Positions 7,339 through 39,773 of a DNA stretch of 64,000 bases are shown here, in pieces. Numbering within the stretch: position 1 is the first letter of the stretch; the number at the start of each line of letters is the position of its first letter. Below the pieces are notes generated by a model. The model had not been told where the DNA came from and ran no database searches. It saw only the letters and a program-made list of their open reading frames with translations. Position numbers and translations under genes: made by a program. The DNA lies in contig NZ_CP102509.1 in the NCBI RefSeq assembly GCF_024611995.1, positions 7,254,001 through 7,318,000 of the forward strand, in the 5' to 3' direction. This stretch comes from Streptomyces sp. NBC_00162 (GTDB lineage: Bacteria > Actinomycetota > Actinomycetes > Streptomycetales > Streptomycetaceae).

Positions 7339-8955
7339 TTGCCCGCACACCAGAAGCTCTACCTTCGCCCGTCCGTGGTGGCCCAGCCCCTCCTGCACCG
7401 CTGGTACGCGTGGCCCTATCTGCTGGCACCCCACACCGGCGCACTCAACCTGCGGGACCGTCTGCTGCCGATCGTGGACAGCTACTTGAAGGCACCTCAC
7501 CTCCACGATGCGGTCAATTCGGACCCACACCGCTACGGCGCGCCCTTCCTCGACCCCCAGGGCGCCACCCACGACGAGGTCCAGGCGGCGCGCGAGACCA
7601 TGGCCAAGGGAGGCGAGGCCAAGCTCCAGCTCGCCGACGACATAGACGAACTCCGCGCCCTGCTGCGGGAGAAGGCAGTCGGCGGGCCGATGGAACCCCT
7701 CTATCCCTTGGTCCCCCACTCCCTGCGCGGGCGGGTCGAGCTCGTCTACGACACCGCCCATAAGCCCACCTTCCGCTTCTTCGAAGCGCTGATGTACGGC
7801 TCGCCGGCGTACGAGCGCGACGGTCAGTGCGTCTCCCTCACCGCCGCGGCGAGCCCCCAGCCCTTCGTGTACAGCAGTCCCGTCCTCCCACGCCCCGACC
7901 GCCTGGACATCGATCTGCCCTTCGACTCCCCGCTGTGGAACGACCTGTTCGAGGCGCGCCTCGACCCCGTCGACGTCCCGCACCTCGCGCAACGCCTCGG
8001 GGTCGCCGATGCCGACCTCCCGGCGTTCACCGCGCTGTTCCACGACGTGCCGCCGGCGCAGCACACCCCGCCCGCGCCCGGAGACGTCCGGGTGCGGTAC
8101 CTCAATCACGCATCCGTGCTGATCGAGACCGGCACCGCGTCCGTGCTCCTCGACCCGCTCCTCGGCTACACCGACGACGGCTACGAGCACTACACCATCG
8201 AAGACCTCCCCCGGCACATCGACGCCGTCGTCATCAGCCACTTCCACTCCGACCACTTCTCGCTGGAGACCCTGCTCCAACTCCGCACCCGCATCGGCAC
8301 GATCGTCGTTCCCCGCGCCTCCGGCGGATCGCTGCCCGATCCCAGCCTCAAGACCATGCTCCAGGCCCTCGGCTTCTCCAACGTCCAGGAGCTGGCCGAA
8401 CTCGAGACCCACCGCGTGGCCGACCACGTCGAAGTCACCGCCCTCCCCTTCGTGGGCGAGCACGCCGACCTCGACATCCGCACCAAGATGGTGCCCCTCG
8501 TCCAAGCCGGCGGCCGCAGGTTCCTCTTCGCCACCGACATCACGCCGCTCGAGCCCGCCCTGTTCGACAACATCCCCGGCCTCACCGAGACCCCTCTCGA
8601 CGCGCTCTTCATCGGCCTCGAATGCGTCGGAGCCCCTCTGAACTGGCTGTACGGGCCGATGCTGGAAGGGAAGCTCTCCCGTGAGCACAACAACGGGCGC
8701 CGCCTCAAGGGCAGCAACGCCGCCCAGGCCGACCAGCTCGCCCGGCAGCTGGGCGCCCGTCACGTCTACGCCTACGCCATGGGCCTCGAACCCTGGCTCA
8801 AGCACCTCACCGGCTCCGAGTACGACCCCGAAGCCGAACAGGTGCAGCAGGCCGGCGTCCTCACGCGGCTGAGCGCCGAACGCGGCATCACGGCCGAGCT
8901 CCTGCGCGACCGGGCCGAGCGCACCTGGCCCGCCGTCGACCCGGCGAAGCCGTAG
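7339..8955 (+). CDS. CmlA-like non-haem diiron beta-hydroxylase for carrier-bound amino acid
   Basis: The 538-residue length is close to CmlA (532), the diiron enzyme that beta-hydroxylates a peptidyl-carrier-bound amino acid in chloramphenicol synthesis. An N-terminal family-specific domain (about 1-240) precedes a metallo-beta-lactamase fold. That fold has HFHSDH (His301, His303, Asp305, His306), Glu374 in FVGEHADL and Asp400 in FATD. CmlA places its ligands at 305, 307, 309, 310, 377 and 403, and the Glu is the hallmark separating it from hydrolases. TTG at 7339 has GAGGGA six bases upstream; an ATG at 7276 is a weaker alternative. It is followed by a thioesterase and a His-code A-T protein, so histidine is the likely substrate. 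Confidence 0.88.
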   Translation: MPAHQKLYLRPSVVAQPLLHRWYAWPYLLAPHTGALNLRDRLLPIVDSYLKAPHLHDAVNSDPHRYGAPFLDPQGATHDEVQAARETMAKGGEAKLQLADDIDELRALLREKAVGGPMEPLYPLVPHSLRGRVELVYDTAHKPTFRFFEALMYGSPAYERDGQCVSLTAAASPQPFVYSSPVLPRPDRLDIDLPFDSPLWNDLFEARLDPVDVPHLAQRLGVADADLPAFTALFHDVPPAQHTPPAPGDVRVRYLNHASVLIETGTASVLLDPLLGYTDDGYEHYTIEDLPRHIDAVVISHFHSDHFSLETLLQLRTRIGTIVVPRASGGSLPDPSLKTMLQALGFSNVQELAELETHRVADHVEVTALPFVGEHADLDIRTKMVPLVQAGGRRFLFATDITPLEPALFDNIPGLTETPLDALFIGLECVGAPLNWLYGPMLEGKLSREHNNGRRLKGSNAAQADQLARQLGARHVYAYAMGLEPWLKHLTGSEYDPEAEQVQQAGVLTRLSAERGITAELLRDRAERTWPAVDPAKP

Positions 8956-9014
8956 GTCCGAGCGGTCGTCCGTCCCTGCCGTGCCCGTCGTAGATCCTCT
9001 TGGGTGGTGCGTAC

Positions 9015-9785
9015 ATGCAGAACCACGCCGGGCGCCGGAGCGCGCCTCTGCGCCGCTTCGGCCCGCCGAGTACGGGCCCGACCGCGCATCAGGACCAGGG
9101 TGCCGCAAGCCGCGCCACCCTGGTCTGCTTTCCGAGCGCGGGCGCCGGAGCGACCGGCTTCGCGCCGTGGCGCAGGTTGCTGCCCGAGTGGCTCGACCTC
9201 TACGGCCACGTCGGACCCGGGCGTGAGGAGCGCAGCCGGGAGACGCCCCTGAGTTCCGTGGAGGAGCTGGTCGACGACGTGCTGCCGGACGTGCTCGCGC
9301 TCCCGGACCCGCTGGTCCTGGTCGGGCACAGTTTCGGCGCGGCCCTGGCCTACGAACTGACGCACCGGCTGACCCTGGCCGGCCGCCCACCGATGCGGCT
9401 GGTGGTCCTCGCGGCGGTCGCTCCGGGGGCGACGGCGTTGGAGCCGCCCAAGAACGATCACGAGATCGAACTGCTCTGGAATCAGCTGGGTGCCAACAGT
9501 GCCGGTCTCAGCCGCCCCGGCTTCCGCGAATGGCTCTTCCCGGTGCTGCGCGCCGACTTCACCGCGCAGGCGGCCTACCGCCCGGCCCGCCCCTCGTACA
9601 TCACCACGCCGGTCACGGTGATGTACGGAGACGAGGACCAGGTCGTGACGGCCGAGGAGGCGGCGATCTGGCGGACTCTGTGCTCGGGTCCGTTCGAGGT
9701 CGTACCCGTGCCGGGCGGTCACTTCTTTCCGCAGGCGGAGCGGGCGGCGACGACCGGCGCACTGGTGCGTGCACTCGAGCGGTAA
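9015..9785 (+). CDS. type II thioesterase
   Basis: The 256-residue alpha/beta hydrolase has VCFPSAGAGATGF near residue 38 and the nucleophile Ser106 in GHSFGA. The acidic residue is in YGDEDQVV and the catalytic His in PGGHFFPQ. Type II thioesterases clear misloaded acyl groups from carrier proteins; here it may also help release product, because no NRPS protein in the cluster carries a thioesterase domain. It lies between the CmlA-like gene and the A-T gene on the same strand. A GTG 15 bases upstream is an alternative start. Confidence 0.88.
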   Translation: MQNHAGRRSAPLRRFGPPSTGPTAHQDQGAASRATLVCFPSAGAGATGFAPWRRLLPEWLDLYGHVGPGREERSRETPLSSVEELVDDVLPDVLALPDPLVLVGHSFGAALAYELTHRLTLAGRPPMRLVVLAAVAPGATALEPPKNDHEIELLWNQLGANSAGLSRPGFREWLFPVLRADFTAQAAYRPARPSYITTPVTVMYGDEDQVVTAEEAAIWRTLCSGPFEVVPVPGGHFFPQAERAATTGALVRALER

Positions 9786-9862
9786 TAGAGGGCCATTCGA
9801 TCGGTGGCGGCTACGCTATTCGAATCTAGAATTGACAATGATCCGGCAGGGGACGTTTGTTG

Positions 9863-11653
9863 ATGAACCATGACGATCCAAGGACTCTGACTTTCCTCTT
9901 CGAGGAATGTGTCAGAAGATATTCGGGGCATACTGCCCTGGAATTCGAAGGTGAATCTTTGAGCTACGGCGAGCTGAATCGCCGGGCAAACAGACTGGCC
10001 CACCACCTGAGGGATACCGGCCAGGTCCGCCCCGATGACCGGGTGGCGATTTTGGTCCGGCATCCCCTGGACGTGATCATTTCCATGCTGGCCGTCCTCA
10101 AGGCCGGCGGTGCCTATGTCCCCCTGGACCCCGACAACCCGCCGGGGGTGACCCAGCGGATCGTCGAGGACGTGGCACCCAAGGCCATGGTGATCGAGTC
10201 GTCAGCGGCCGCCGGCGCGATGTACTTCAACGGCGAGCTGTTCGTTCTGGACGTCATGAGCGCCGCCCTGACCACCCCGGACACCGACCCCGAACCCGCG
10301 GCCACGCCCTCCGACCTCGCGTACGTGATCTACACGTCGGGGTCGACGGGCAGGCCCAAGGGCGTGGCCGTCGAGCACCGTGCGATCGTCCATACGCTGA
10401 CGTGGCGCAATTCCTATTACGGTTTCGGTCCGGAGGACGTGACGCTGGCCATTCCGCGGCCGTCCTTCGACAGTGCCGTGGCGGACACGTTCTGCGCCCT
10501 CACCTCCGGTGCACGTCTGCTGCTGCCGCGCCGGGACCGCATCACCGACCGGCATTACCTGACCGGCCTGATGGAACACGGGAACGTCACCCATTTCCTG
10601 ATCACGCCGATGCTGTACAAGCGTTTGCTGGAGGGCATGGAAGCCGGGTCGGTGACGTCCCTGCGGTGCGTCACGATCGCCGGTGAATGGTTCACGCCGA
10701 GCCTGACCCTCGAGCACTACCTGCGCCTGCCGCAGGTGGATCTGTACAACGAGTACGGGCCGTCCGAGAACGCGGTCTGCTCCACCGTCCACCGCCTCGC
10801 CGCCACCGACGAGCGCGTCCTCATCGGCAGGCCGATCGAGAACACCGAGGCGTTCGTCCTGGACGAGGACGGTCAGCCGGTGGGGCCGGGCGGGATCGGC
10901 GAGCTCCACCTCGCCGGGGCGGGCCTGGCCCGCGGCTACCTGGGCGACCCCGAGCTGACGGCACAGCGCTTCTTCACCCCGGCCGCGGCCCCCGCCGCCG
11001 GCAAGCGCGTCTACCGCACCGGGGACATCGTGCGACAGCACGCCGGCGGTGACCTGGAGTTCATCGAGCGCCGTGACGGCCAGGTGAAGATCCGGGGCCG
11101 ACGGGTCGAGCTGGGTCAGGTGGCCCAGGTCCTGGCCCAGGACGCGACGGTCAGCCACGTGCACGTCCTGCGCCACGTCACCGAGACCGACACTCCGCTG
11201 CTGGTCGCCTTCGTCCAGGGGTCCACCGGGCAGGACGTCGACCGGCTGCGCGCGACGGCGCAGGAGAACCTCCCGGACTACATGGTCCCCTCGGCCATCA
11301 TCCCGGTCGACACGGTGCCGCTGACCGGCAACGGCAAGGTCGACGACAAGGCCCTCATCGCCCTGTACGAGGGGACGGTCGGCCGGCGTGCGGCGGGTCC
11401 GCAGCCGGGGAGCGAGGCCGAGGCGGCGCTTCTGGAGATCTGGCAGGAGCTGTTCGCGCCGCTGCCCATCGGTCTGGACGACGACTTCCTGGACCTGGGC
11501 GGCGACTCGTTGAGTGTGATGGACCTGCTGGCCCATGTGGAGCAGCGGATCGGGGTCCAGCTTGAGGTCTCGGACCCCTACACGGACCGGACCATCCGGA
11601 GCCTGGCCCTCGTGATCGAGGACCGACAGAACGACAAGGTGGGAGCAAAGTGA
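9863..11653 (+). CDS. NRPS adenylation-carrier didomain, predicted histidine-activating
   Basis: The 596-residue protein has a complete A domain (about 5-500) with YVIYTSGSTGRPKGV, NEYGPSE and the A10 lysine in NGKVDD. A carrier domain follows, with DLGGDSLSVMD. A hand alignment to GrsA gives the specificity residues D-S-A-L-T-A-E-V-C-K. This differs at one position from the code of the bacitracin histidine module (D-S-E-L-T-A-E-V-C-K), so histidine is the predicted substrate. There is no condensation domain, so the loaded histidine is presented in trans. The ATG at 9863 is preferred over in-frame TTGs just before it. The stop overlaps the halogenase start (GTGA), coupling the two. Confidence 0.9.
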   Translation: MNHDDPRTLTFLFEECVRRYSGHTALEFEGESLSYGELNRRANRLAHHLRDTGQVRPDDRVAILVRHPLDVIISMLAVLKAGGAYVPLDPDNPPGVTQRIVEDVAPKAMVIESSAAAGAMYFNGELFVLDVMSAALTTPDTDPEPAATPSDLAYVIYTSGSTGRPKGVAVEHRAIVHTLTWRNSYYGFGPEDVTLAIPRPSFDSAVADTFCALTSGARLLLPRRDRITDRHYLTGLMEHGNVTHFLITPMLYKRLLEGMEAGSVTSLRCVTIAGEWFTPSLTLEHYLRLPQVDLYNEYGPSENAVCSTVHRLAATDERVLIGRPIENTEAFVLDEDGQPVGPGGIGELHLAGAGLARGYLGDPELTAQRFFTPAAAPAAGKRVYRTGDIVRQHAGGDLEFIERRDGQVKIRGRRVELGQVAQVLAQDATVSHVHVLRHVTETDTPLLVAFVQGSTGQDVDRLRATAQENLPDYMVPSAIIPVDTVPLTGNGKVDDKALIALYEGTVGRRAAGPQPGSEAEAALLEIWQELFAPLPIGLDDDFLDLGGDSLSVMDLLAHVEQRIGVQLEVSDPYTDRTIRSLALVIEDRQNDKVGAK

Positions 11654-13404
11654 GCAGGCAGAGCGGTACCGATTCCATTTTCGGCGGTGTCGACTACGAC
11701 GTGGTCATCGCGGGCGGAGGCCTGGCCGGGCTGACTCTGGCCAAGCAGCTCAAGGACGCGCAGCCCGGGCTGTCCGTCCTGGTCTGCGAGCGCGAGCGCT
11801 CCCCGATCCCGCTGTCCGCGTTCAAGGTCGGCGAGTCCTCGGTCGAGGTGGGCGCCTACTACTTCTCCCACGTCATCGGCCTGTACGACTACCTGGAGGA
11901 ACAGCACCTGGAGAAGCTGGGGCTGCGCTACTTCTACGGCGGCGGCCAAGGTCTCCAGGACGAAGCCGAGTTCGGTGTCAACCGCTTCCTGCCGGCGAAG
12001 TCCTACCAGCTCAACCGCGGCTCCCTGGAAGAACACCTGCGCGTGATCGTCGAGGGTGCCGGGGCCGTGCTGACGCAGGGCGTGAAGGTCCTGGACATCG
12101 AGCTCGGTGAGCAGGACGCCCCCCACAAGGTCACGTACCAGGCCATCGACGACGACAGCGCGCAGCCCGCCACCGTGACCTGCCGGTGGGTCGTCGACGC
12201 CACGGGCCGGCACCGCCTGCTGCAGCGCAAGCTCGACCTCACCAAGCGGTACCCCAAGCCCCACAACTCGGTCTGGTTCCGGCTCGAAGGCCGGCTCGAC
12301 ACCGACGAGGCGGTCGGCCCCGAGCACTCCGGCTGGCACGACCGCATCACCGAACCGCGCTGGCACTCCACCAACCACTTCATGTTCGAGGGCGGCTGGG
12401 TGTGGGCCATCCCGCTGGCCCCCGACCACACCAGCGTCGGCATCGTCGTGTCCGACGACCTCCACCCGGTCACCAAGTTCAACCGGATCGAGAAGGCGAT
12501 CGACTTCGTCGTGGAGCGCGTGCCGGGCTTCGACCCCGCGATCCGCGAGCTGCCGGTCCTCGACTTCCGCGTACTGAAGAACTACAGCCACTCCTCGCAG
12601 CAGGTCTTCTCGCAGGACCGCTGGGCGTGCGTCGGCGACGCCGCGGTCTTCGCCGACCCCTACTACTCCGTGGGGTCGAACCTGATCGGCTACGCCAACA
12701 GCTTCGTGACCGAGATGGTCGGCCGGGACGTGAAGGAGTCCTTCGACGAGGGCTTCGTGCGGTACGCCAACCGCTGGTTCCTCTCGCTCGCCGAGGGCCT
12801 CACGATGAACATCCAGGGCTCCTACGCCTTCCACGACAACGCCGTGATCATGTCGTTGAAGACGATCTGGGACTACTACGTCGGATGGTCCTTCTCCGAC
12901 CCGCAGTTCTACGGGAAGACCTTCCTGGACGAGTCGGCGAGCACCACGCTCAGCGCGCTCGGCGCGCACGCGGTGGCGACCCAGGGCACCATCATGAACC
13001 TCTTCCAGGCCTGGGCGCGCAGCTACCGCGGCGTCTTCGCATTCGACTACATCGACTACTACGACGACGTGCCCACGCTCGCCCGGCTCTTCGAGCAGAA
13101 CCTGCCGGGTGACGAGATACCCGCCTTCGGCACGGTGCTCACGAGCGTGCGCGACGGTCTGGAGCGCATCGAGGAGCTGGCCCACGTCATCTTCTACCTC
13201 GCCCTCGAGGACGCCCTTCCCGAGAGCCTCGAAGAGATCCGCTCGCGGGGCTGGCTCAACGTCTCGGCACTGAGCCTGGACCCGGAACGCTGGGAGCAGG
13301 ACGGACTGTTCGCGCCCAAGAGCCGGCCGAGGCTGGACGAGGTCAACGCGCTGGAGAAGGAGCTGCGGGCCCTTTACCGCACCTCGACGCCCGCCGGACG
13401 GTAG
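11650..13404 (+). CDS. FAD-dependent halogenase
   Basis: The 584-residue flavoprotein has the FAD motif GGGLAG (residues 22-27), the conserved KVGESS at 59-64 and the halogenase motif W250-x-W252-x-I-P. GDAAVFADPYYSVGSN follows, lining the flavin site. Lys89 (HLEKLGLRYF) is in the position expected for the lysine that carries or guides hypochlorous acid. It needs reduced FAD from a partner reductase, not seen in the window. Coupling to the His A-T gene suggests that it chlorinates the imidazole of carrier-bound histidine. Some members of this fold are monooxygenases rather than halogenases, so chlorination is an inference supported by context. Confidence 0.82.
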   Translation: MSRQSGTDSIFGGVDYDVVIAGGGLAGLTLAKQLKDAQPGLSVLVCERERSPIPLSAFKVGESSVEVGAYYFSHVIGLYDYLEEQHLEKLGLRYFYGGGQGLQDEAEFGVNRFLPAKSYQLNRGSLEEHLRVIVEGAGAVLTQGVKVLDIELGEQDAPHKVTYQAIDDDSAQPATVTCRWVVDATGRHRLLQRKLDLTKRYPKPHNSVWFRLEGRLDTDEAVGPEHSGWHDRITEPRWHSTNHFMFEGGWVWAIPLAPDHTSVGIVVSDDLHPVTKFNRIEKAIDFVVERVPGFDPAIRELPVLDFRVLKNYSHSSQQVFSQDRWACVGDAAVFADPYYSVGSNLIGYANSFVTEMVGRDVKESFDEGFVRYANRWFLSLAEGLTMNIQGSYAFHDNAVIMSLKTIWDYYVGWSFSDPQFYGKTFLDESASTTLSALGAHAVATQGTIMNLFQAWARSYRGVFAFDYIDYYDDVPTLARLFEQNLPGDEIPAFGTVLTSVRDGLERIEELAHVIFYLALEDALPESLEEIRSRGWLNVSALSLDPERWEQDGLFAPKSRPRLDEVNALEKELRALYRTSTPAGR

Positions 13405-13409
13405 ATCAC

Positions 13410-13484: not shown

Positions 13485-13513
13485 TTGCGGGCCGCCCGGT
13501 GCTGTCGTAGCGT
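13485..13513 (+). promoter_or_regulatory. candidate rsgA promoter
   Basis: TTGCGG at 13485-13490 and TAGCGT at 13508-13513 are separated by 17 bases. The site lies after the terminator at 13410-13446 and about 170 bases before the rsgA start, so rsgA appears to have its own promoter. Confidence 0.4.
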
Positions 13514-13686: not shown

Positions 13687-14787
13687 TTGCGTCACTCATC
13701 GACATCGGCTGATTCGATCTACCCGCGGCCGCTTGAGGCCTACGGATGGTCCCCTGAGCTCGACGACCAATTCGCCTCCGTTGCCGACGCCTCGTGGGTG
13801 CCCGGCCGGGTCATCCGCGTCGACCGGGGCCGCTGCGACGTCGTGATCGCCGACGGCGACACCGAGGTGACCGTCGTCCACGCCGACACAGGTCCGGTCG
13901 CGGACCCCGACCCCATGAAGATGCCCTGCACGGGCGACTGGGTGGCGGTCCGGGCCAGTGCGGCCGGCACGTACGTCCAGGCGCTGCTGCCGCGTCGCAC
14001 GGCGATGGTCCGCTCCAGCGCCTCGCAGCGCTCCGAGGGCCAGGTGCTGGCCGCCAACATCGATACCATCGGCGTCGTCGTGGCCCTGGACACGGAGCCG
14101 GACCTCGGCCGGATCGAGCGGTTCCTCGCCCTCGCGTGGGAGAGCGGAGCGCAGCCGGTGATGGTCCTCACCAAGTCCGACCTCGCGGAGGACGCGGAGA
14201 GCGTCCGCGAGACGGTCGAACAGGCCTCGCCCGGGGTGGACGTCCTGGTCGTCAGCGCCACCACCGACGACGGCATGGACATCCTCGCGGCCGTTCTGAC
14301 GGGGACGAGCGTCCTGGTCGGACAGTCGGGCGCGGGCAAGTCCACCATCGCCAACGTACTGCTGGGCCGCTCCGTGATGGAGACCCAGCAGACCAGGAGC
14401 GACGGCAAGGGCCGCCACACCACCACGACCCGCGAGCTGATGCCCCTGCCGGGCGGCGGTGTGCTGATCGACACTCCCGGTATTCGCGGCGTGGGCCTGT
14501 ACGACGCCGCAGACGGCCTCCAGCAGACGTTCTCGGAGATCGAGCTGCTCGCCGAGGACTGCCGGTTCCGGGACTGCGATCACGTCGCGGAACCCGGCTG
14601 TGCGGTACAGGAGGCCATCGAGGACGGCATGCTGCAGCAGCGCCGCCTGGACAGCTACCACAAGCTGATCCGGGAGAACCAGTGGATCGCCTCGCGGAGC
14701 GATGCCCGCCTGCGCCAGGAGCGCCTCAAGGCGCTGAAGACGCAGGGCAAGGAAGGCATGGCCAACATGATCGCGAAGCGCGGCTGA
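13687..14787 (+). CDS. rsgA: RsgA-type circularly permuted ribosome-assembly GTPase
   Basis: The 366-residue protein has an OB-fold N-terminus. The GTPase motifs come in permuted order: TKSD (G4), then SAT (G5), GQSGAGKST (G1) and DTPG (G3). A C-terminal zinc knuckle CRFRDCDH...PGC follows. RsgA acts in late 30S maturation and binds near the decoding centre. TTG at 13687 has GAAGGG nine bases upstream; longer in-frame starts lack homology. A strong hairpin flanks it on each side, so it is an independent unit inside a biosynthetic cluster. Because GE81112-type peptides target the 30S initiation step, it may be a self-protection gene rather than the housekeeping copy; this is inference. Confidence 0.9.
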   Translation: MRHSSTSADSIYPRPLEAYGWSPELDDQFASVADASWVPGRVIRVDRGRCDVVIADGDTEVTVVHADTGPVADPDPMKMPCTGDWVAVRASAAGTYVQALLPRRTAMVRSSASQRSEGQVLAANIDTIGVVVALDTEPDLGRIERFLALAWESGAQPVMVLTKSDLAEDAESVRETVEQASPGVDVLVVSATTDDGMDILAAVLTGTSVLVGQSGAGKSTIANVLLGRSVMETQQTRSDGKGRHTTTTRELMPLPGGGVLIDTPGIRGVGLYDAADGLQQTFSEIELLAEDCRFRDCDHVAEPGCAVQEAIEDGMLQQRRLDSYHKLIRENQWIASRSDARLRQERLKALKTQGKEGMANMIAKRG

Positions 14788-14803
14788 CGCGAGGCAGCGG
14801 CCT

Positions 14804-14851: not shown

Positions 14852-15072
14852 TGAACAAGTGCATGGGCACCCTGTGGTGTCAGCGGTGACCCGCGTACCG
14901 GCTCGGCCACGGCCCGGCGGTGCGCGGTCCGTTCGCGTCCCACCTCGGTGACGGTGTGCCCGCACGTGCCCGATGCGGTGTTCGAAACCCATGGCGGTCC
15001 ACACGCCGTGGCGAACGCCGCTTGGCCGACGGGCAGTTGTCTTCATTCGTCCTCGAGCAAGGAAACGTGCCC

Positions 15073-31058: not shown

Positions 31059-32849
31059 TCAGTGTGCGGGCTGGTCCGAAGAAGGCGTAGGAACAGAGGA
31101 TTTTGAAGAGGCCGGGCCGCGCCCGTGCCAGGACTCCCACAGCCCGGCGTACGCGCCCCCCGCCGAGACGAGCTCGTCATGAGCTCCCTGCTCGGTGATG
31201 CGGCCGGCCTCCATCACGACCACACGGTCCGCGTCATGAGAGGTGTGCAGCCGGTGGGCGATGGCGATGACGGTGCGCCCGCGCAGCACGCCTGCGAGCG
31301 AACGCTCGAGGTCGCGGGCGGCCCGCGGGTCGAGCAGCGAGGTGGCCTCGTCGAGCACCAGGGTGTGCGGATCGGCCAGGACGAGCCGGGCCAGGGCCAG
31401 TTGCTGTGCCTGGCCGGGCGACACGGGGTTCTCGTCGGTGCCCAGCTCCGTGTCGAGGCCGCTGGGAAGGGCCTGGACCCAGTCCTCGGCGGCCACGGCC
31501 GCCAGGGCCGCCGTCACCTGTTCGTCCGTGGCGTCCGGCGCGGCCAGTGCGACGTTCTCGCGCACGGTTCCGAGGAACACGTGGTGTTCCTGGGTGACCA
31601 GTGCGACGTGGCGGCGCAGTTCTTCCAACGGCAGTTCGTGGACCGGCACTCCGCCCAGCGTGACCGATCCGGTACGCGGCTCGTGGATCCCGGCGAGGAT
31701 GCGGCCGAGGGTCGACTTCCCGGCCCCCGAAGGGCCGACGATGGCGATGCGCTCACCGGATCCGACGCTGAGACTGACGTCCTCGATCACGTCGTGACCG
31801 GCCCGGTAGGCGTAGGCGATGCCTTCCGCGGCCAGCCGGTCGCCTTCGGGCCGCCGGCCGGAGTCGCTCGCCGGGCCGGCGTCGGCCTCGATGCCGATCA
31901 GGCGGGCCAGCGAGGCATCACCGACCTGCAACTCTTCGAGCCAGCCGAGGAGTTCGTCCAGCGGGTCGATCACGGCCCGGGTGTAGAGGGTCGCGGCGGT
32001 CACCTCGGCGAGGCTCACCCAGCCCTCGATGTAGAAGAAGCCGCCGAACAGCAGAGTGGCGGCTACCGGCAGCACGTAGCCGAAGTCCATCAGCGGGAAC
32101 CAGACGCTGCGCAGGAACAGCGTGCGCCGCTCCGCGCCGTTCGCCCGCTCGACGTCCTCGTCCGTGCGGCGGATGCGCGGGCCGGACCGGTGCAGCGACT
32201 CCACGGTGCGGGCGCCGGTCACCGTCTCCGAGAGGCCCTGGGAGAGGTCGGAATAGCCGGCCGCCTCGGCCAGGTAGGCCTCCCGGGCACGTGCCAGGTA
32301 CCAGCGGGTCGACCAGACGATGAGCGGGACGGCGACGAGGCACGGCAGGACCATGATCGGGCTGGTGACGACCAGCGCCACCAGTGTCAGTCCCACCGAG
32401 AGGCTCGCCACCAGGATCGACGGCGCCCCCATGCGTACGGCGCTGGACAGCGCATCCACGTCGCGGGTGCTGCGGGTCAGCAGATCGCCGGCCCCGGCCT
32501 TCTCCACCGTGTGCAGGGGCAGGGTCAGGACCCGCCGTACGAACCCCTCGCGGATGTCGGCCAGGACCAGCTCACCGAGCCGGGCCCCCTGGAGGCGGGC
32601 AGTGCGGGTGAACGCGGCCTGGAGCAGGAGGAGTCCGGCGATCGTCAGCACGGTGATGTCCACCTGGTCGGTGGTGATGCCCTTCTCCACCTGCCCGACC
32701 AGACGGCCCAGCAGGGCGGGCACGACCAGACCGCAGACCGTGGCGAGGACGAACCAGAGCACGGTGCGGCTCAGCAGGCCGGTATGGCTGCGCACCAGGC
32801 CCCGTACGTGACGGCGGACCGTCTTCGCGTCGGCTACCGGAAGACTCAC
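31059..32849 (-). CDS. ABC exporter half, catalytically competent NBD
   Basis: The 596-residue half-transporter has about six membrane segments (residues 25-300) and a C-terminal ATPase domain. The Walker A is GPSGAGKST and the Walker B LVLDEATS has the catalytic Glu. The signature reads SPGQA instead of LSGGQ. This is the pattern of the subunit that supplies the working Walker A/B half in a heterodimeric exporter; the consensus signature comes from the partner at 32899-34590. GTG at 32849 is preceded by GAGGAG. The pair most likely pumps the finished peptide out of the cell and so also protects the host. Confidence 0.88.
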   Translation of the reverse strand: MSLPVADAKTVRRHVRGLVRSHTGLLSRTVLWFVLATVCGLVVPALLGRLVGQVEKGITTDQVDITVLTIAGLLLLQAAFTRTARLQGARLGELVLADIREGFVRRVLTLPLHTVEKAGAGDLLTRSTRDVDALSSAVRMGAPSILVASLSVGLTLVALVVTSPIMVLPCLVAVPLIVWSTRWYLARAREAYLAEAAGYSDLSQGLSETVTGARTVESLHRSGPRIRRTDEDVERANGAERRTLFLRSVWFPLMDFGYVLPVAATLLFGGFFYIEGWVSLAEVTAATLYTRAVIDPLDELLGWLEELQVGDASLARLIGIEADAGPASDSGRRPEGDRLAAEGIAYAYRAGHDVIEDVSLSVGSGERIAIVGPSGAGKSTLGRILAGIHEPRTGSVTLGGVPVHELPLEELRRHVALVTQEHHVFLGTVRENVALAAPDATDEQVTAALAAVAAEDWVQALPSGLDTELGTDENPVSPGQAQQLALARLVLADPHTLVLDEATSLLDPRAARDLERSLAGVLRGRTVIAIAHRLHTSHDADRVVVMEAGRITEQGAHDELVSAGGAYAGLWESWHGRGPASSKSSVPTPSSDQPAH

Positions 32850-32898: not shown

Positions 32899-34590
32899 TC
32901 ACGTCTCCTCCCGCATGACAACGGCGGCGTACTGGGACGCACCGGTGGCGAGTTCACGGTGCGTACCGGTCACGACGACCTTGCCGTCCTCCACGTAGGC
33001 GACCTCGTCGGCCTGGTCGAGCAACAGCGGGCTGTTGCTCACGACCACGGTGGTGCGCTCCGCCCTGGACCTGTGGAGCCGTTCGGCGATCACCGATTCG
33101 GTGTGCGCGTCCACGGCGCTGGTCGGATCCACCAGGACCAGGACCTGGGGCTGCGCTGCCAGCGCGCGCGCCAGCCGCAGCCGCTGCTGCTGACCGCCCG
33201 AGAAGGCGGAGCCCCCTTCGGTGACGACGGTGTCCAGACCGTCCGGCAGGGCCTCGACGATGTCTTCCGCGTTGGCGTCGTGCAGGGCCTGGGCCCGCAC
33301 CTGCTCCGAACGTCCGCCCAGATCCTCGGCCAGGACACCGGAGAAGAGGGTGTCGTCGTTGCGGGCCACCAGGACGAGGTCGCGCACCTGCTCCAGCGGC
33401 AGCGAGTCCAGGGGTACGCCGCCGACGGTCACCTGACCCGGGGCGTAGCGCCCGAGCCGTTCGGCGATCTCGGCGCCCTCCTCCGGAGTGGAGGCGGCGA
33501 TCGCGGTCATCAGCCCCGGCCGGACCCGCAGCCCCGAGTCCGCGTCGTACAGGTCGGGCGCCTCGGAGAGGTCGGCCCGTGCGGCGTCGGAGCCGGCGTC
33601 GGGCTCGAGGGCCAGTACCCGCACGACGCGCTGCGCCGCCACATCGGCGCCGACGAACGACTGCACCGCAGAAGTCGCCGTACGCATCGGCAGCATGAGG
33701 AACGCGGCGTATCCGTAGGCCGCGACGAGTTCACCGGCGGAGAGACCGCCACCGACGGCGAGGCGGGCACCGATCCAGACGACCGCCACCACGAAGATGC
33801 CGGGGAGCAGCACCTCGGCGGCGGGCAGCACCGATTCGACCTTCGCCACGTGGACGCCGGCCTGGCGCAGCCGCTGCGAGTCCTTGCGGTAGCGCTCGCC
33901 GAAGGCGGCCTCGCCGCCGATGCCGCGCAGCACGCGCAGACCGGACACGATGTCGCCGGCCCGGTTCGTCAAGTCGCCCTGCAGGTCGCGGTAACTGCCG
34001 ATGCGCTTGTGCAGGGGGCTGAGCAGCGGGCCCGTGCCCGCGAGGAGGACGGGGACGCCGATGAGGACGAGCAGCCCGAGGGTGACCGAGGTGGAGAGCA
34101 GCACGATGGCGACGAGCACGACGGTGACCGCGCTGCCGATGCCGCGGGCGACTGCCCCGGGCAGGGCGCCGATGCGGGTGATGTCCGCCGTGCCGATGGC
34201 CACGACCTCGCCGGCGGAGATCCGCTTGGGCAGGGTCGCGCCCAGCCGTACCGCCTGCGCGGCCACGAGGCGGAAGGTCAGGTAGTTGGCCTTGAGCCGG
34301 CCGATCGTGTCACAGCGGTGGCGCAGGACGCTGCCGGCGGTGGTCACCAGGGCGAGCCCGATGATGACGCCGGTCCAGACCAGCAGCCGGTCGGTGTCCT
34401 GCTCCGAGATGGCGTCGATGGCCCGGCCGATGGCGAAGGGGGTCAGGCCCATGCTGGCCATCCACAGGCAGCCCCACAACACCCCGAGGAACAGTGTGCT
34501 CGACTGCCTGCCGATCAGCCATCGAAGATAGTGCCGGGGCGATCGGAGGTCCGGATCTCCCAGCTCGGGCAGCGGATCGTTGCTTGGCAA
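32899..34590 (-). CDS. ABC exporter half with degenerate ATPase site
   Basis: The 563-residue half-transporter has an N-terminal six-helix membrane domain and an NBD whose Walker A is unrecognisable (AIAASTPEEGAEIAERL in place of GxxGxGKS). Its Walker B reads VLVLVDPTS, with Pro where the catalytic Glu should be. The signature FSGGQQQRL is intact. It therefore can bind the partner's ATP but not hydrolyse its own, as in asymmetric exporters. TTG at 34590 has AAGGAT upstream. It is followed after 49 bases by the competent partner, forming a two-gene exporter module. Confidence 0.87.
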   Translation of the reverse strand: MPSNDPLPELGDPDLRSPRHYLRWLIGRQSSTLFLGVLWGCLWMASMGLTPFAIGRAIDAISEQDTDRLLVWTGVIIGLALVTTAGSVLRHRCDTIGRLKANYLTFRLVAAQAVRLGATLPKRISAGEVVAIGTADITRIGALPGAVARGIGSAVTVVLVAIVLLSTSVTLGLLVLIGVPVLLAGTGPLLSPLHKRIGSYRDLQGDLTNRAGDIVSGLRVLRGIGGEAAFGERYRKDSQRLRQAGVHVAKVESVLPAAEVLLPGIFVVAVVWIGARLAVGGGLSAGELVAAYGYAAFLMLPMRTATSAVQSFVGADVAAQRVVRVLALEPDAGSDAARADLSEAPDLYDADSGLRVRPGLMTAIAASTPEEGAEIAERLGRYAPGQVTVGGVPLDSLPLEQVRDLVLVARNDDTLFSGVLAEDLGGRSEQVRAQALHDANAEDIVEALPDGLDTVVTEGGSAFSGGQQQRLRLARALAAQPQVLVLVDPTSAVDAHTESVIAERLHRSRAERTTVVVSNSPLLLDQADEVAYVEDGKVVVTGTHRELATGASQYAAVVMREET

Positions 34591-34667: not shown

Positions 34668-34691
34668 CGGGGACGCTCGGGAGCGTCCCCG
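34668..34691 (-). terminator. hairpin between thioesterase and exporter genes
   Basis: Arms 34668-34677 and 34682-34691 pair perfectly over ten bases around a CGGG loop, directly after the stop of the minus-strand thioesterase gene. It may end or attenuate transcription before the exporter genes. Confidence 0.55.
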
Positions 34692-34692
34692 G

Positions 34693-35502
34693 TCAGCTGT
34701 GCGGTGGCAGCAGACCGAGGACGAACGCCCTCAGTTCAGCGGTCACGTGGCGTGGGTCGGCGTGGTGGTAGAAGTGGTCTCCGGGGAAGGTCCGCACGGT
34801 GTCGGTACCGGCGGACCAGGCACGCCACTTGCGGATGTGTTCGTCCGTCACGCCGGCATCGTCCTGGCCGCGCCATGCACCGACCGGGCAGGGCAGGAGG
34901 GTGTCCTCGCCGGGTGGCGTGTAGGAGTCGCAGATGGCGATGTCGCCGCGCAGGGGTCGCGCCACCGCCGTGGCCAGGCGGCTGTTGGCGGCCAAGGCGG
35001 CGGGCACGGCGCCGTCCGCGACCAGTTCGGCGACGAGCTCCTGGTCGGTCAGTCGAAGCGAGCCGGAGGGCTCGCCCTGGTCGTCCGGGGCCCGGCAGGC
35101 CGAGGCGACGAATCCGCGGGGCCACCGGCCGCGCTCCCGGCCCAGGGCGCGGGCGAGCTCGTACCCCACCAGAGCTCCCATGCTGTGGCCGAACACGAAG
35201 TAGGGCAGGTCGAGCCGGGCGGCGAGGGCCGGCGCCAGCTCGTCGAGCACCTCCGCCATGCCGGTCGCGGGCTCCTCGCGCCACCGGCTCTCGCGGCCCG
35301 GCAGCTGTACGGCCAGCAGTGCGATGTCCGGGCCGAGCAGTTCCTGCCAGGGGCGGAACTGAAAGGCGCCGGAACCCGCGTGGGGCAGGCACACCAGCAG
35401 CGCCTTCGCGGTGTGCGGCGGGTCCCACTCCACGAGGGGCCCCGGCTTCACAGCCGGGCTAAGACGGACACGCGAATGCGACGCTTCTGAATGGAGGCAC
35501 AC
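34693..35502 (-). CDS. type II thioesterase
   Basis: The 269-residue alpha/beta hydrolase has VCLPHAGSGAFQFRPW near residue 37, the nucleophile in FGHSMGALVGYE near 104-115 and the catalytic His in FPGDHFYHH near 239. This is the closer relative of the RifR/GrsT editing thioesterases. It is the second type II thioesterase of the cluster (the first is at 9015-9785) and may share editing and product release with it. GTG at 35502 is preceded by AAGGGA. It starts the long minus-strand run of exporter, cyclodeaminase and A-domain genes. Confidence 0.9.
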   Translation of the reverse strand: MCLHSEASHSRVRLSPAVKPGPLVEWDPPHTAKALLVCLPHAGSGAFQFRPWQELLGPDIALLAVQLPGRESRWREEPATGMAEVLDELAPALAARLDLPYFVFGHSMGALVGYELARALGRERGRWPRGFVASACRAPDDQGEPSGSLRLTDQELVAELVADGAVPAALAANSRLATAVARPLRGDIAICDSYTPPGEDTLLPCPVGAWRGQDDAGVTDEHIRKWRAWSAGTDTVRTFPGDHFYHHADPRHVTAELRAFVLGLLPPHS

Positions 35503-36084
35503 TGTTTCCCTTGTCAGTCGAGGGTGGCGTTCAACGGTGGACGCCGTATGAGAAGTTGGGGGAGCGGGCGTCTTGCACTGCCCCTCGAGTGAAACTCGAT
35601 TCGAAATACACAGGCCCCAGCCTCGTCGCCAACATTCCTATCACGGAATGGACTTGGAATGTCAACAGGTGAATATCGGCCGTCCGTCATCGCAGCCCCC
35701 ATGGGCTTCCCCATGGGCTCTCCACGCCACCATTTATGATCCCGGTCGAGTCTGCCTAGAGCTCCGCTTCCGATCGGCTGGAAGTGAAATGGAAGAGCCC
35801 TCATCGGGCCCTCGAGTTCAGAGAGTTGTGCCGTAGGTCACGTGGTTGAGTCGCATCGGCTCGTGATTCACTGGCCAGGAATTTACGGGTAAGAGGTCGG
35901 TCGACCTGGAGCCTTGTCGGCCAGGGTATTTCGACGTAACGAGGCGTACCTCTGGCCGGTCGGCGTGCAAGGAGATCCCGATGCCGCCGAAGCAGGTGTC
36001 CAGAACCCCACCCCTGACGGGGGTGCGGGATGAACGCGTGAAGGTTTCGTGGCGATACAGCGCAACGGGGCCGAGGGGGTGTGC
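35503..36084. promoter_or_regulatory. long divergent intergenic region
   Basis: This 582-base spacer separates the minus-strand thioesterase operon from the plus-strand SDR operon and carries both promoters. Visible elements are two CCCATGGG palindromes ten to twelve bases apart near 35699-35717, an AT-rich stretch before them and the short ORF at 35981-36109. No larger conserved gene was found in any frame. Confidence 0.5.
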
Positions 36085-36109
36085 ATGGCGCAGGAAAAGC
36101 GCGGCGTAG
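35981..36109 (+). CDS. possible 42-codon leader ORF overlapping the SDR start
   Basis: An ATG with AAGGAG seven to eight bases upstream opens a 42-residue frame that ends at a TAG inside the SDR gene. Seven of its codons are for arginine (AGA, CGA and AGG twice among them, all rare in Streptomyces), and a CACCCC/GGGGTG hairpin lies inside near 36008-36023. It may be a leader ORF controlling the SDR-NAGS-carbamoyltransferase operon. No homologue is recognised, so it could be chance. Confidence 0.3.
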   Translation: MPPKQVSRTPPLTGVRDERVKVSWRYSATGPRGCAWRRKSAA

Positions 36110-36879
36110 CCGTGGTCTCGGGAGCATCATCGGGCTTCGGCAGGAGAATTGCACAGGTCTTGTGCCGGCGGGGCTACTCCGTCGTGGCTCTGGCTCGCAG
36201 AGCGGACCGTCTGAAGATCCTGGCGGACGAGGACTCCACAGGAGCGATTCTGCCGGTGGTCGCCGATGTCCGCGACCGAGAAGGGCTGGCCCGGGCCCTC
36301 GACGAGCTGCCTCCGGAATTCCGTGACATCTCGGTGCTCGTCAACAACGCCGGCCTCTCACGGGGGTTCGGCCCCCTTCAGTCGGGCAGTGCCGATTCCT
36401 GGCGCGAAATGATCGACACGAATATCTCCGGTCTGCTGAACCTCAGCGGCCTGGTGCTTCCCCGGCTCGTTTCCCGCGGGTCCGGGCACGTGGTGAACAT
36501 CGGCTCGATCGCGGCGAGTTACCCGTACATGGGCGGAAACGTCTATGCCGCCACCAAGGCATTCGTCCACCAGCTGTCGCTGAACATGCGCGTCGACCTC
36601 CAGGGAACGGGCGTCAGGGTGAGCTGCGTGGCGCCGGGTATGGCGAAGACCGAGTTCGCCAAGGTCCGCTACGACGGGGACGAGGAGTGCGCCGACGCGC
36701 TCTACCGGGACATCGAGCCGCTCACCCCCGACGACGTGGCCGAGGCGGTGGCCTGGTGTCTCTCGCAGCCCGCCCGCGTCAACGTCAACATGATCGAACT
36801 CATGCCGGTCGAACAGCACTTCGGGCTCGGCTTCGCCGGTAGCCCGCCCGCCCCGCCGGGTGGTGCGGAGGGTGCGTGA
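36085..36879 (+). CDS. short-chain dehydrogenase/reductase (YdfG-like)
   Basis: The 264-residue classical SDR has the cofactor motif SGASSGFG near residue 13, NNAG, the catalytic serine in NIGSIAAS and Tyr-x3-Lys in VYAATKAF. It resembles YdfG-type NADP-dependent 3-hydroxy acid dehydrogenases, which interconvert small hydroxy acids and semialdehydes. Its operon partners are NAGS- and NAGK-like proteins and an O-carbamoyltransferase. A reduction of a glutamate-semialdehyde derivative to the 5-alcohol is therefore a reasonable role (inference). GAGGGGG lies five bases before the ATG. Confidence 0.85.
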   Translation: MAQEKRGVAVVSGASSGFGRRIAQVLCRRGYSVVALARRADRLKILADEDSTGAILPVVADVRDREGLARALDELPPEFRDISVLVNNAGLSRGFGPLQSGSADSWREMIDTNISGLLNLSGLVLPRLVSRGSGHVVNIGSIAASYPYMGGNVYAATKAFVHQLSLNMRVDLQGTGVRVSCVAPGMAKTEFAKVRYDGDEECADALYRDIEPLTPDDVAEAVAWCLSQPARVNVNMIELMPVEQHFGLGFAGSPPAPPGGAEGA

Positions 36880-36883
36880 GTCT

Positions 36884-37366
36884 GTGCTGACCGCCTCCCG
36901 GCGTGTGGCCGCGCCGGACGTGCTCGTCGCAAGACCCGCGCGCCCCGAGGACGCGGAGCAGATCGCTCTGCTCTCCGCCCCGTTCGTCGAGCAGGGCCTG
37001 CTGGTCGCCCGCCCGCTGGCCGAAATCGCCGCGACATCGCAGGACTTCGTGGTCGCTTGCGAAGGGGACCGGCTGGTCGGCTGCGCCGGGGTGACACCGT
37101 CCGGCGGCAGCCTGGTCGTCTACAACCTGTGCATTGCGGTCGACCGGCAGGGCAGCGGAATCGGCCGGCATCTGGTCGGCATTGCCGAGACCACCGCCAG
37201 AGAACTGGGCTACAGCTCTTTGCTGGCCCTGACCCGGCACGGCGGGGAATGGTTCGGGAAGCTGGGCTTCAGAGAAGTCCCGGCGAGCGAGACCCGTGAC
37301 GAATGGCGCACTCTTTTCCGTCCGGGCCGAAAATCCAGCCTCTACCAGTTGAGGCTCACCTCCTAG
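36884..37366 (+). CDS. NAGS-like GNAT (amino-acid N-acetyltransferase)
   Basis: The 160-residue GNAT protein resembles the acetyltransferase domain of ArgA/NAGS from start to end. RPARPEDAEQIALL opens it, EQGLLVARPLAEI corresponds to the glutamate-binding part, RQGSGIGRHLV is the acetyl-CoA loop and HGGEWFGKLGFREVP is the typical C-terminal motif. NAGS acetylates glutamate at the start of arginine synthesis. Here it sits four bases after the SDR gene and before a carbamoyltransferase and an NAGK-like gene, so it is probably a pathway copy. GTG at 36884 was chosen with GGAGG upstream; GTGs at 36860-36872 are possible. Confidence 0.8.
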   Translation: MLTASRRVAAPDVLVARPARPEDAEQIALLSAPFVEQGLLVARPLAEIAATSQDFVVACEGDRLVGCAGVTPSGGSLVVYNLCIAVDRQGSGIGRHLVGIAETTARELGYSSLLALTRHGGEWFGKLGFREVPASETRDEWRTLFRPGRKSSLYQLRLTS

Positions 37367-37425
37367 CAGTCCGGAAACCGAAGCACGCCCATGTGCCGAC
37401 TCAAGCAGACCAAGGAGTAACCCAG

Positions 37426-39132
37426 TTGATAATCTGCGGGTTGAAACTCACGCATGATGGTGCCGTCGCCCTGGTCGACGACGACCGTCTCGTGTTCAGT
37501 GTTGAGATGGAGAAGCTGGGGAACGGTCTGCGCTACAGCACTGTTGCCGACTTCAGCCTGATCCCCGGAGTCCTCTCCGACTTCGGCTACAAGCCGGAGG
37601 ACGTCGACCAGTGGGTCGTCGACGGCTGGGACGGAGACGTTTCCGGAACGGTTTCCCTCCTGGACCAGGGGGTGCCCACAGAGATCGTGGTCGGTCCCTA
37701 CCGGGAGTCGGCTGCGTGCCCGGCGCTCGATTCGCCCAGCGTCTCGGGCACGTTCCCGATGGACGGCAGGACCTATCCGTACACGAGCTTCCCGCACGCG
37801 GCGGGACACGTGGCGAGCGCTTACGCATCCAGCCCCTTCGCCCAGCGCGACGAAGGCTCCTTCGTCCTGGTCTGGGACGGCGGACTCTTCCCCCGCCTCT
37901 ACTGGGCGGACCCGCGCGGCGGCGTGGAGAACCTGGGCGAACTCTTCCCCCTCATCGGCCATGCGTACGCCATCGCGGGACACCACTTCGGGCCCTTCCG
38001 CAAAACCGTCCAGTCACCCACGGTCGACGACCTCTCGGTCGCCGGCAAGCTCATGGCGTACATCGCGCTGGGCCGGGTGGACGAGAGCGTCGTCACCGTT
38101 CTGCGGGAGGAGTTCCACCGGGTCTTCGAGAGCGATGAGCCGGCTTCCGTGGAGTACCGCGCGACGGTCGGCGGGTACGGCAGTCTCTTCGAGCGGTCCG
38201 TGCCTCCCATCCACGAGTTCTTCTCCGCGGTCCGCGCCCGGGTGTCGGAGAACGGGATCAGCGACGAGGACGTCCTGGCGAGCGTGCACGCCTTCTTCGA
38301 GGCCCTCCTCGTCGAACGGATCACCGCCAAGGTCCGCGCCGCCAAGGGCGACGGCCCGTGGAACCTGTGCTTCGCCGGCGGCTGCGCGCTCAACATCAAG
38401 TGGAACAGTGCCCTGCGCGAGGCGCCGGACTTCCGTGACGTGTGGGTCCCGCCGTTCCCCAACGACTCGGGTTCCGCCATCGGAGCGGCCGTTCTGGGCC
38501 GGGCACAGCGCGACGGCCTGGCACCGCTCGCGTGGAACCCCCGCCTGGGCCCGGAGCTGACGCCGTCGGACGAGCTGCCCGCCGGCTGGTCGAAGTCGGC
38601 ATGCTCTCCGGAGGAACTCGCCGCGATCCTCCACGAGTCCGGAGAGCCCGTGGTGGTCCTGCACGGACGAGCCGAACTCGGCCCTCGCGCACTCGGCGGC
38701 CGCAGCATCCTCGCGGCCCCGGTCAGCGCGTCGATGAAGGACGAGCTGAACCGGGTGAAGGACCGCGAACCCTACCGGCCCGTCGCCCCCATCTGTCTCG
38801 AGGCCGATGCACCGGAGATCTTCGCTCCCGGCACGCCGGACCCGCACATGCTCTTCGACCACGAGGTACGGGCGGAATGGGTGGACCGGATCCCCGCGGT
38901 CATCCACCTGGACGGCACCGCGCGGCTCCAGACGGTCGGCCCGGCGGACGACGACCTGCTCTTCGCCGTACTGTCCGCCTATCAACGGCTCAGCGGTGTC
39001 CCCGTGCTGTGCAACACCAGCGCCAACCTCAACGGGCACGGCTTCTTCCCCGACGTGGCCTCCGCGGCCGAGTGGGGCAGGGTCGCCCGGATCTGGAGCG
39101 ACGGGACGCTGTATCAGCGGACCGACGGCTGA
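37426..39132 (+). CDS. NodU/CmcH-family O-carbamoyltransferase
   Basis: The 568-residue protein has the Kae1-like N-terminal domain (LTHDGA at residues 8-13 and the metal site in FPHAAGHVASAY). The C-terminal YrdC-like domain has ELGPRALGGRSILA and REPYRPVAPICLE. Such enzymes (TobZ, CmcH) make carbamoyl-adenylate from carbamoyl phosphate and ATP and transfer it to a hydroxyl group. A 5-hydroxy amino acid is the expected acceptor in this cluster, giving the carbamoyloxy residue of GE81112-type peptides. TTG at 37426 is supported by AAGGAG eight bases upstream and by the family's short N-terminus. Confidence 0.92.
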   Translation: MIICGLKLTHDGAVALVDDDRLVFSVEMEKLGNGLRYSTVADFSLIPGVLSDFGYKPEDVDQWVVDGWDGDVSGTVSLLDQGVPTEIVVGPYRESAACPALDSPSVSGTFPMDGRTYPYTSFPHAAGHVASAYASSPFAQRDEGSFVLVWDGGLFPRLYWADPRGGVENLGELFPLIGHAYAIAGHHFGPFRKTVQSPTVDDLSVAGKLMAYIALGRVDESVVTVLREEFHRVFESDEPASVEYRATVGGYGSLFERSVPPIHEFFSAVRARVSENGISDEDVLASVHAFFEALLVERITAKVRAAKGDGPWNLCFAGGCALNIKWNSALREAPDFRDVWVPPFPNDSGSAIGAAVLGRAQRDGLAPLAWNPRLGPELTPSDELPAGWSKSACSPEELAAILHESGEPVVVLHGRAELGPRALGGRSILAAPVSASMKDELNRVKDREPYRPVAPICLEADAPEIFAPGTPDPHMLFDHEVRAEWVDRIPAVIHLDGTARLQTVGPADDDLLFAVLSAYQRLSGVPVLCNTSANLNGHGFFPDVASAAEWGRVARIWSDGTLYQRTDG

Positions 39133-39140
39133 GCCGAGGC

Positions 39141-39773
39141 ATGACACCGGAGGCACACCCCGACCCGGCCGCCCAGGACGTGGCCGAAACCCTCGTCGCC
39201 ACCCTGCCCCGGATCAGGGAACTGCACGGCCGGACCGTGGTCGTGGTGGCCGGGCACCACGTGCTCGCCGACGACAAGCTGCGGCACGCGTTCTGCGGTG
39301 ACATCGGGTTCCTGCGGTACAGCGGGGTGAGGACCGTCCTGGTGCACGACGGCGGCCCTCACCTCCCGGCATGGCTGGACGACGACCCGGCTGCGCTGCG
39401 CACCCATGTCGCGGGATACGTACAGCGGGGACTGGTGGGGAGCCTCAACGACCACACCACGCTGGCGGTCGGCCTCACGGGTGAGGACGGCCGCACGCTG
39501 GAGGTGGGCGAGGGAGAGGACGTACGGGTCGATCCGGGGGTGCTCCGCGTGTTCCTCGACAGTGGCCGGATTCCGGTGGTGTCGAGCATCGCGTACGGCA
39601 AGGACGGCGGCATCCGCCACCTCGCTGCGACATCGGCCGCCACCGCTCTCGCCTCGGCGCTCGACGCCGCCTTGGTGCTCCCGGCCGGAGCCGGAGCGGT
39701 GGGCCCGGCGTCCGCGACCTTCGTCGACATGGCCGTGCCGCACGCGGTGTTGAGGCATCTCCATCGCCTCTGA
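39141..39773 (+). CDS. truncated NAGK (ArgB)-like amino acid kinase protein
   Basis: The 210-residue product aligns with the N-terminal two thirds of acetylglutamate kinase. RTVVVVAGHHVL replaces the usual VVKYGGxxM, then come DDKLRHAFCGDIGFLRYSGVRTVLVHDGGP and IPVVSSIAYGKDG. The glycine-rich phosphate loop is altered, the expected NINAD motif reads RHLAATSAA, and the C-terminal ATP-binding part of about 90 residues is missing. It may therefore be a regulatory or acyl-glutamate-binding protein rather than a kinase. It starts eight bases after the carbamoyltransferase stop and is the last gene of the operon. Confidence 0.78.
   Translation: MTPEAHPDPAAQDVAETLVATLPRIRELHGRTVVVVAGHHVLADDKLRHAFCGDIGFLRYSGVRTVLVHDGGPHLPAWLDDDPAALRTHVAGYVQRGLVGSLNDHTTLAVGLTGEDGRTLEVGEGEDVRVDPGVLRVFLDSGRIPVVSSIAYGKDGGIRHLAATSAATALASALDAALVLPAGAGAVGPASATFVDMAVPHAVLRHLHRL

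Follow-up and report, generated by a model that had tools for sequence, protein, structure and literature searches.

GE81112 is a first-in-class inhibitor of 30S initiation, and its get gene cluster is the described system to which we compare a locus of Streptomyces sp. NBC_00162 here. The locus lies at 7276-39773 of a window of 64,000 nucleotides (contig NZ_CP102509.1, positions 7,254,001 to 7,318,000). Gene calls and family searches of this window reveal a gene set of the GE81112 kind, and inside it a gene for the GTPase RsgA, which we propose as a candidate self-resistance gene. The get cluster reportedly comprises six nonribosomal peptide synthetase (NRPS) genes, with split NRPS modules and one free-standing NRPS domain. 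It consists of getA-N of Streptomyces sp. L-49973, and its products have masses of 643-658 Da and contain chlorine (PMC5960728). GE81112 is composed of 3-hydroxypipecolate, 4-hydroxycitrulline or its O-carbamoyl analogue, 2-aminohistidine and chloro-beta-hydroxyhistidine (PMC12607687). It binds in the E-site mRNA channel, where it contacts h23 (G693), h24 (U788-G791, A794-C796), h45 (U1506) and S11 (PMC12607687). A similar site has been reported in a second study, in which start-codon recognition is allowed and the departure of IF3 is impeded (PMC11903750). The passages found on GE81112 resistance describe transporter loss and rRNA mutations, and these passages do not mention producer immunity.

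As described for get, the locus has split NRPS modules, one free-standing NRPS domain and the classes of enzyme that the four residues call for. Without RsgA, the cluster would be an ordinary further producer; with RsgA, it is a good candidate for a new self-resistance mechanism. The RsgA gene is a complete open reading frame (ORF) between the halogenase gene and an NRPS gene of the form x-A-T (A, adenylation; T, thiolation; C, condensation domain; x, an N-terminal part discussed below), with a TTG start inferred from relatives. Its product is a circularly permuted GTPase with all G motifs, a zinc finger and OB-like N-terminal strands, as in the 30S assembly GTPase RsgA/YjeQ/EngC. Unlike that protein, it is encoded in an antibiotic cluster, belongs to a separate clade and is proposed here to protect the mature 30S subunit. 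The best solved sequence match is RsgA 6h4d (1.4e-44). The predicted fold (mean pLDDT 75.2, pTM 0.69, from a 19-sequence alignment) matches 30S-bound RsgA (7boi_W, 1.7e-21; 5no2_Z, 3.0e-20). In its motifs and predicted fold, the cluster protein is thus an intact RsgA GTPase.

Scanning the species genomes of GTDB with an alignment of the halogenase, we obtained 17 loci, including close copies of the cluster (type I) in S. katrae NRRL B-16271, S. hirsutus NRRL B-2713 and Streptomyces sp. H27-C3, where the contig ends inside. Two of these, S. katrae and S. hirsutus, are collection strains. Two further type I clusters (G606 and G611) were found by RsgA search. A sister subtype (type II) is present in Streptomyces sp. 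MMG1121, S. actinomycinicus (contig C41) and G362, with enzymes 45-83% identical to those of the window. Together, these six type I clusters, counting that of the window, and three type II clusters likely represent more producers of the GE81112 family, which the earlier note on this DNA had called valuable. In type II, an additional VioC-like oxygenase is encoded, and the large NRPS gene is replaced by two separate ones, both A-T-C in S. actinomycinicus. Type II has six NRPS genes, as get is said to have, versus five in type I; here the comparison is with a description of get.

RsgA is present in the same place inside all six type I clusters. Four of these were found without RsgA as a query; G606 and G611, like the loci of G194 and S.PB5 (contig C4) introduced below, were reached by RsgA search and are therefore not independent support for its presence. 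A promoter-like element, TTGCGG-N17/18-TAGCGT, precedes RsgA in each of the six. The gene is under purifying selection, with dN/dS values of 0.15-0.17 (the out-of-frame second-RsgA comparison between this genome and S. hirsutus is excluded); the halogenase gene stands at 0.19 and the VioC-like gene at 0.21-0.24. The cluster RsgA is a duplicate of a core gene that sits within the cluster and is conserved with it. Loci of G051 and G063 (halogenase 40-41% identical) and L022-L029 stand outside these counts.

Could RsgA be a passenger, without a role in production or immunity? It does have a promoter-like element of its own, and only some clusters have a Na+/H+ exchanger gene next to it, which suggests that this spot tolerates insertions. 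The exchanger gene (e.g. L015:11807-13000) occurs in two type I and three type II loci and in G309 and G384 (L014, L015, L070, L074, L077, L125, L126), and was not found in the window. However, the position of RsgA is the same in six of six type I clusters with differing outer flanks, the gene is under purifying selection, and other RsgA lineages occur in other NRPS loci. We consider a passenger highly improbable.

We slightly favour a role of the cluster RsgA in self-resistance, at least in part, judging from its sequence and setting. The whole reading, a GE81112-family cluster in which RsgA is dedicated to self-resistance by target protection, we hold to be evenly balanced. Several observations weigh against it. 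In two of the three type II clusters no RsgA was found across the 54 kb read, so that only MMG1121 has one, and the genomes of the two RsgA-free clusters carry only copies resembling RsgA2 (an accessory paralogue, see below) and standard RsgA. The ABC exporters and the GNAT acetyltransferase are alternative sources of immunity. Moreover, 12 of the 20 surroundings of extra RsgA copies described below (L127-L138) showed no NRPS or polyketide synthase (PKS) signal in a comparison limited to our own set of proteins, and extra copies are thus not confined to antibiotic clusters.

These points lead to an alternative in which the cluster is of GE81112 type, but RsgA only aids 30S assembly under drug stress, while immunity is provided by the ABC exporters and/or the GNAT, the latter by acetylating the peptide as in edeine. 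In line with this, the ABC pair occurs in every type I and type II cluster in which that end was covered, and the GNAT in five of five type I clusters covered there. Two of the three type II clusters, moreover, manage without RsgA. On the other hand, GNAT matches in type II are 38-48% identical or not found, and MMG1121 is a type II cluster that has RsgA and no GNAT match. General assembly help is also already supplied by the core RsgA copies. This alternative appears rather doubtful to us.

How might a dedicated RsgA protect the ribosome? RsgA-GTP clamps h44 near h24/h45, its OB domain occupying the A site and its zinc finger resting on the head at the P site; 70S ribosomes exposed to RsgA dissociate (PMC6912228, PMC9032327). 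The reported 30S contacts of RsgA and GE81112, taken from separate published descriptions, are neighbours. Since the contacts adjoin, RsgA could take a stalled 30S complex apart or remodel the h24/h45 pocket. In the mechanism we propose, RsgA-GTP would bind the 30S subunit next to the drug pocket, clamp h44 beside h24/h45 and touch the head at the P site. It would then expel the drug, or clear drug-stalled pre-initiation complexes, and leave the subunit after GTP hydrolysis. This would resemble ribosome protection by TetM (named in PMC7157823) in that a GTPase acts on a drug-bound region of the 30S subunit; TetM differs in being an unrelated translation-factor GTPase that acts on a different drug and site. 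Searches of open-licence papers for RsgA as a self-resistance factor led to one paper, in which rsgA is a single table line for the berninamycin producer (PMC9290621), and among the other titles listed none dealt with this role. If true, ribosome protection by a dedicated RsgA would be mechanistically new and would give the streptomycete RsgA2 a purpose.

The descent of the cluster copy points to this accessory paralogue. The genome has four RsgA genes above the family cut-off: C1:3379237, the standard RsgA, presumably next to aroA; C1:2387810, here called RsgA2; the cluster copy; and a copy on contig 2. The closest of the other three to the cluster RsgA is RsgA2 (57% identity), followed by the contig 2 copy (47%) and standard RsgA (33%); the type I clade groups with Streptacidiphilus proteins. 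The contig 2 copy, the copies of G194 and S.PB5 and that of MMG1121 form one clade (support 0.836 and 0.814 in two trees) apart from type I. Of 392 genomes sampled from the genus, 378 gave a match to the contig 2 RsgA at E <=1e-40, and most of the matches listed at ~50% identity are likely RsgA2. A set of 14 cluster-specific positions, obtained by comparing 15 type I copies with 51 proteins of the core group, proved uninformative and was not used; two of them (111 and 210) are common to all four copies of the second lineage.

In S. coelicolor, the RsgA/EngC genes SCO6149 and SCO5211 are listed among WblC-activated gene/paralogue pairs (PMC7157823). The order in the other listed pairs suggests that SCO6149 is the activated one. 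SCO6149 may well correspond to RsgA2, which is supported by WblC-type promoters ahead of RsgA2 genes. Of 37 RsgA2 genes, a non-random sample made up of 9 loci plus 28 top-scoring ones, 34 have an upstream sequence that agrees with the published WblC/WhiB7-type consensus, GAAAWY-N3-TKGMNN-N16-19-TANNNT, in at least 11 of its 13 positions. Single-letter shuffles (20 per locus) average ~9 and reach 12 once, and 11 standard RsgA genes score 8-9. Whereas the source paralogue RsgA2 thus has promoters of the WblC/WhiB7 regulon, we rejected such control for the cluster RsgA, since the four type I copies scanned reach 8-10 of 13, the same as shuffles. In the second lineage, the score is 12 for MMG1121 and 8 for each of the three remaining genes.

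We put forward, tentatively, that peptide antibiotic clusters acquired RsgA, otherwise a 30S assembly checkpoint, on more than one occasion, as a GTPase that protects the ribosome from drugs acting in the mRNA channel of the 30S subunit. The source would be the accessory RsgA under WblC control, which most streptomycetes would retain for general defence against ribosome-targeting drugs. A second NRPS cluster, which has an RsgA of its own, lies at ~104789-138072 (L005-L007) of contig 2 (388,840 bases). Its other genes encode CmlA, MFS, a VioC-like oxygenase, a B12-binding radical SAM enzyme, a free A domain, three NRPS proteins, a PF10014 oxygenase, an S9 peptidase and LuxR. CmlA is 52% identical to that of the window, and the NRPS proteins (x-A-T, T-C and the large one) are 44-45% identical; protein comparison with the window found no halogenase, cyclodeaminase, GetF or carbamoyltransferase. 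G194 has a matching cluster with RsgA, and a 20-kb stretch of S.PB5 has matching RsgA, S9, oxygenase and NRPS genes. If the proposal holds, a cluster-borne RsgA would be a genome-mining flag for new 30S-initiation inhibitors, e.g. the product of this second cluster.

At least two RsgA matches were found in 21 of the 392 genomes; leaving aside this genome and G194, the remaining 19 provided 20 surroundings of extra copies. Four of these contain NRPS/PKS genes (L123-L126), including the NRPS loci of G309 and G384 (L125, L126), where RsgA lies near a VioC-like gene and the Na+/H+ exchanger. These two loci also hold an NRPS with a methyltransferase domain, MFS and a phosphopantetheinyl transferase (Pfam on L125 only). 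Four others (L139-L142) have an RsgA at 37-42% identity, and L139, L141 and L142 share neighbour sizes; here RsgA (38-44% identity) lies amid JmjC/2OG oxygenase, MFS and CMD-family genes (L139:4670-11896; Pfam on L139 only). At L129:8511-10249 an extra RsgA stands beside a 248-aa methyltransferase (Pfam on L129 only), with like sizes in L131 and L132; this could be another resistance pair.

The cluster itself is composed as follows (window coordinates).

7276-8955, plus strand: CmlA-type diiron beta-hydroxylase (PF18456, CmlA_N, 2.9e-61)
9000-9785, plus: thioesterase TE1 (PF00975, 3.2e-31), missing from three of six type I clusters
9857-11653, plus: NRPS A-T, His-like code DSALTAEVC
11650-13404, plus: flavin-dependent halogenase (Trp_halogenase 45.8 bits, cut-off 21; WxWxIP motif), scoring far under the CmlS equivalog cut-off
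13485-13513, plus: promoter-like TTGCGG-N17-TAGCGT upstream of RsgA
13687-14787, plus: RsgA GTPase, 366 aa, candidate self-resistance gene (PF03193, 2.1e-47; TIGR00157 159.1 bits, cut-off 100)
15067-17505, plus: NRPS x-A-T (x, N-terminal ~230 aa), code DSATTAEVG
17595-18632, minus: VioC/OrfP/GetI-type Fe/2OG oxygenase (TIGR03946 421.1 bits, cut-off 418.6; 4m23, 3e-115)
18669-20309, minus: NRPS T-C
20299-27345, minus: NRPS x-A-T-C-A-T-C (x, N-terminal part), codes DAYNLGLIE and DAALVGEVV
27544-28380, plus: GetF-like proline/pipecolate hydroxylase (PF05373, Pro_3_hydrox_C, 2e-8; 4p7w, 8.3e-30)
28356-29957, minus: free-standing A domain, Pro/pipecolate-like code DVQ?IAHMV (one position ambiguous)
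29954-31042, minus: ornithine/lysine cyclodeaminase family protein (PF02423, 5.2e-56)
31059-32849, minus: ABC half-transporter 1
32899-34590, minus: ABC half-transporter 2
34693-35502, minus: thioesterase TE2 (PF00975, 7.1e-34)
36049-36879, plus: short-chain dehydrogenase (SDR; PF00106, 4.8e-48)
36860-37366, plus: GNAT acetyltransferase, alternative immunity candidate
37426-39132, plus: NodU-type carbamoyltransferase (PF02543, 4.6e-77; NodU model 711.8 bits, short of the cut-off, 1000)
39141-39773, plus: amino-acid-kinase-like protein (PF00696, 4.4e-10), not found in every type I cluster

The earlier note had named a lysine cyclodeaminase, GetF-like and GetI-like oxygenases, a CmlA-like hydroxylase, a flavin halogenase, one His-like and one Pro-like A-domain code, a carbamoyltransferase and an exporter; each is borne out as long ORFs with family matches in the place it gave, the exporter as two ABC half-transporters. 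The numbering of the nine-position codes and the reference codes behind the His-like and Pro/pipecolate-like readings are presumed. RsgA, TE1, the SDR, the GNAT and the amino-acid-kinase-like gene come in addition to what the note listed. Its GE81112-like tetrapeptide stands in part: there is a candidate enzyme for each building block, going by family for 3-hydroxypipecolate, the hydroxycitrulline/carbamoyl residue and chloro-beta-hydroxyhistidine, and three C domains fit a four-residue assembly line, but no gene in the locus clearly accounts for the 2-amino group of 2-aminohistidine.

In total, the NRPS proteins comprise five A, five T and three C domains, in the order A-T; x-A-T; T-C; x-A-T-C-A-T-C; free A, with one C domain in the T-C protein and two in the large one. 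The ~230-aa x part of the x-A-T protein has no Pfam match ahead of its A domain; judged by eye, the x parts of both proteins may resemble the end of a C domain. We infer the following order of residues. Lysine would be converted to pipecolate by the cyclodeaminase and hydroxylated by the GetF-like enzyme, and the free Pro-like A domain would load it in trans onto the T-C protein as residue 1. The A-T-C-A-T-C protein would add a hydroxylated, perhaps carbamoylated residue derived from citrulline or arginine, followed by a His-type residue. Residue 4, chloro-beta-hydroxyhistidine, would be held on the x-A-T protein, and the ABC pair would export the peptide. The A-T protein encoded between CmlA/TE1 and the halogenase contains the remaining, fifth A domain, which probably serves as an off-line histidine station on which CmlA and the halogenase act. 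In nikkomycin-type pathways, beta-hydroxyhistidine is made at such a station by A-T loading of histidine, beta-hydroxylation and a thioesterase. The station proposed here shares these elements, but a CmlA diiron enzyme replaces the P450, a halogenase is added, and TE1 is missing in half of the type I clusters.

The locus very probably makes a GE81112-type product, as far as its genes can tell. Residue 2 is not fixed, because the VioC-like oxygenase is closest to solved arginine hydroxylases, which counts against a strict GE81112 assignment. A related but different peptide, e.g. with an arginine-derived residue or another use of the extra A domain, would also agree with this oxygenase passing the cut-off for VioC, an arginine beta-hydroxylase, with the two sister subtypes that have the same enzymes and with three A-domain codes that are not known to have a clear match. 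Yet the cyclodeaminase, GetF-like enzyme, halogenase, CmlA and carbamoyltransferase together with three C domains fit GE81112, and a published account relates GetI itself to VioC and OrfP (PMC10884159). A different peptide thus seems quite unlikely, and since types I and II both carry the whole enzyme set, the locus may produce either GE81112 itself or a near variant of it.

The span from CmlA to the carbamoyltransferase is kept across strains, whereas the neighbours outside CmlA and the carbamoyltransferase/amino-acid-kinase genes vary from strain to strain, which supports these borders. No Get name appears among the 120 listed halogenase matches, most of which are nameless. A plasmid location of the halogenase was dismissed, with just two PLSDB matches (33.7 and 39.1% identity), and an Rfam search of 7000-40000 gave no match. 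The CmlA/TE/A-T/halogenase cassette also occurs with other NRPS genes in S. actinomycinicus C52 (L079-L081) and Catenulispora (L019 and L020, covered over 21.7 kb only), which suggests that the station for chloro-beta-hydroxyhistidine can move as a unit. The two Catenulispora genomes have a single RsgA match each, of the standard kind.

The cluster is flanked by a sulfatase with an NPCBM domain (3529-5763) and a pectate lyase/pectinesterase fusion (39917-42289), ordinary enzymes by Pfam. Further downstream, 2,760 bp (53018-55774), with three genes resembling an ABC uptake operon, are copied at 99.3% identity at ~C1:2405027-2407786 (L010) of the same genome.

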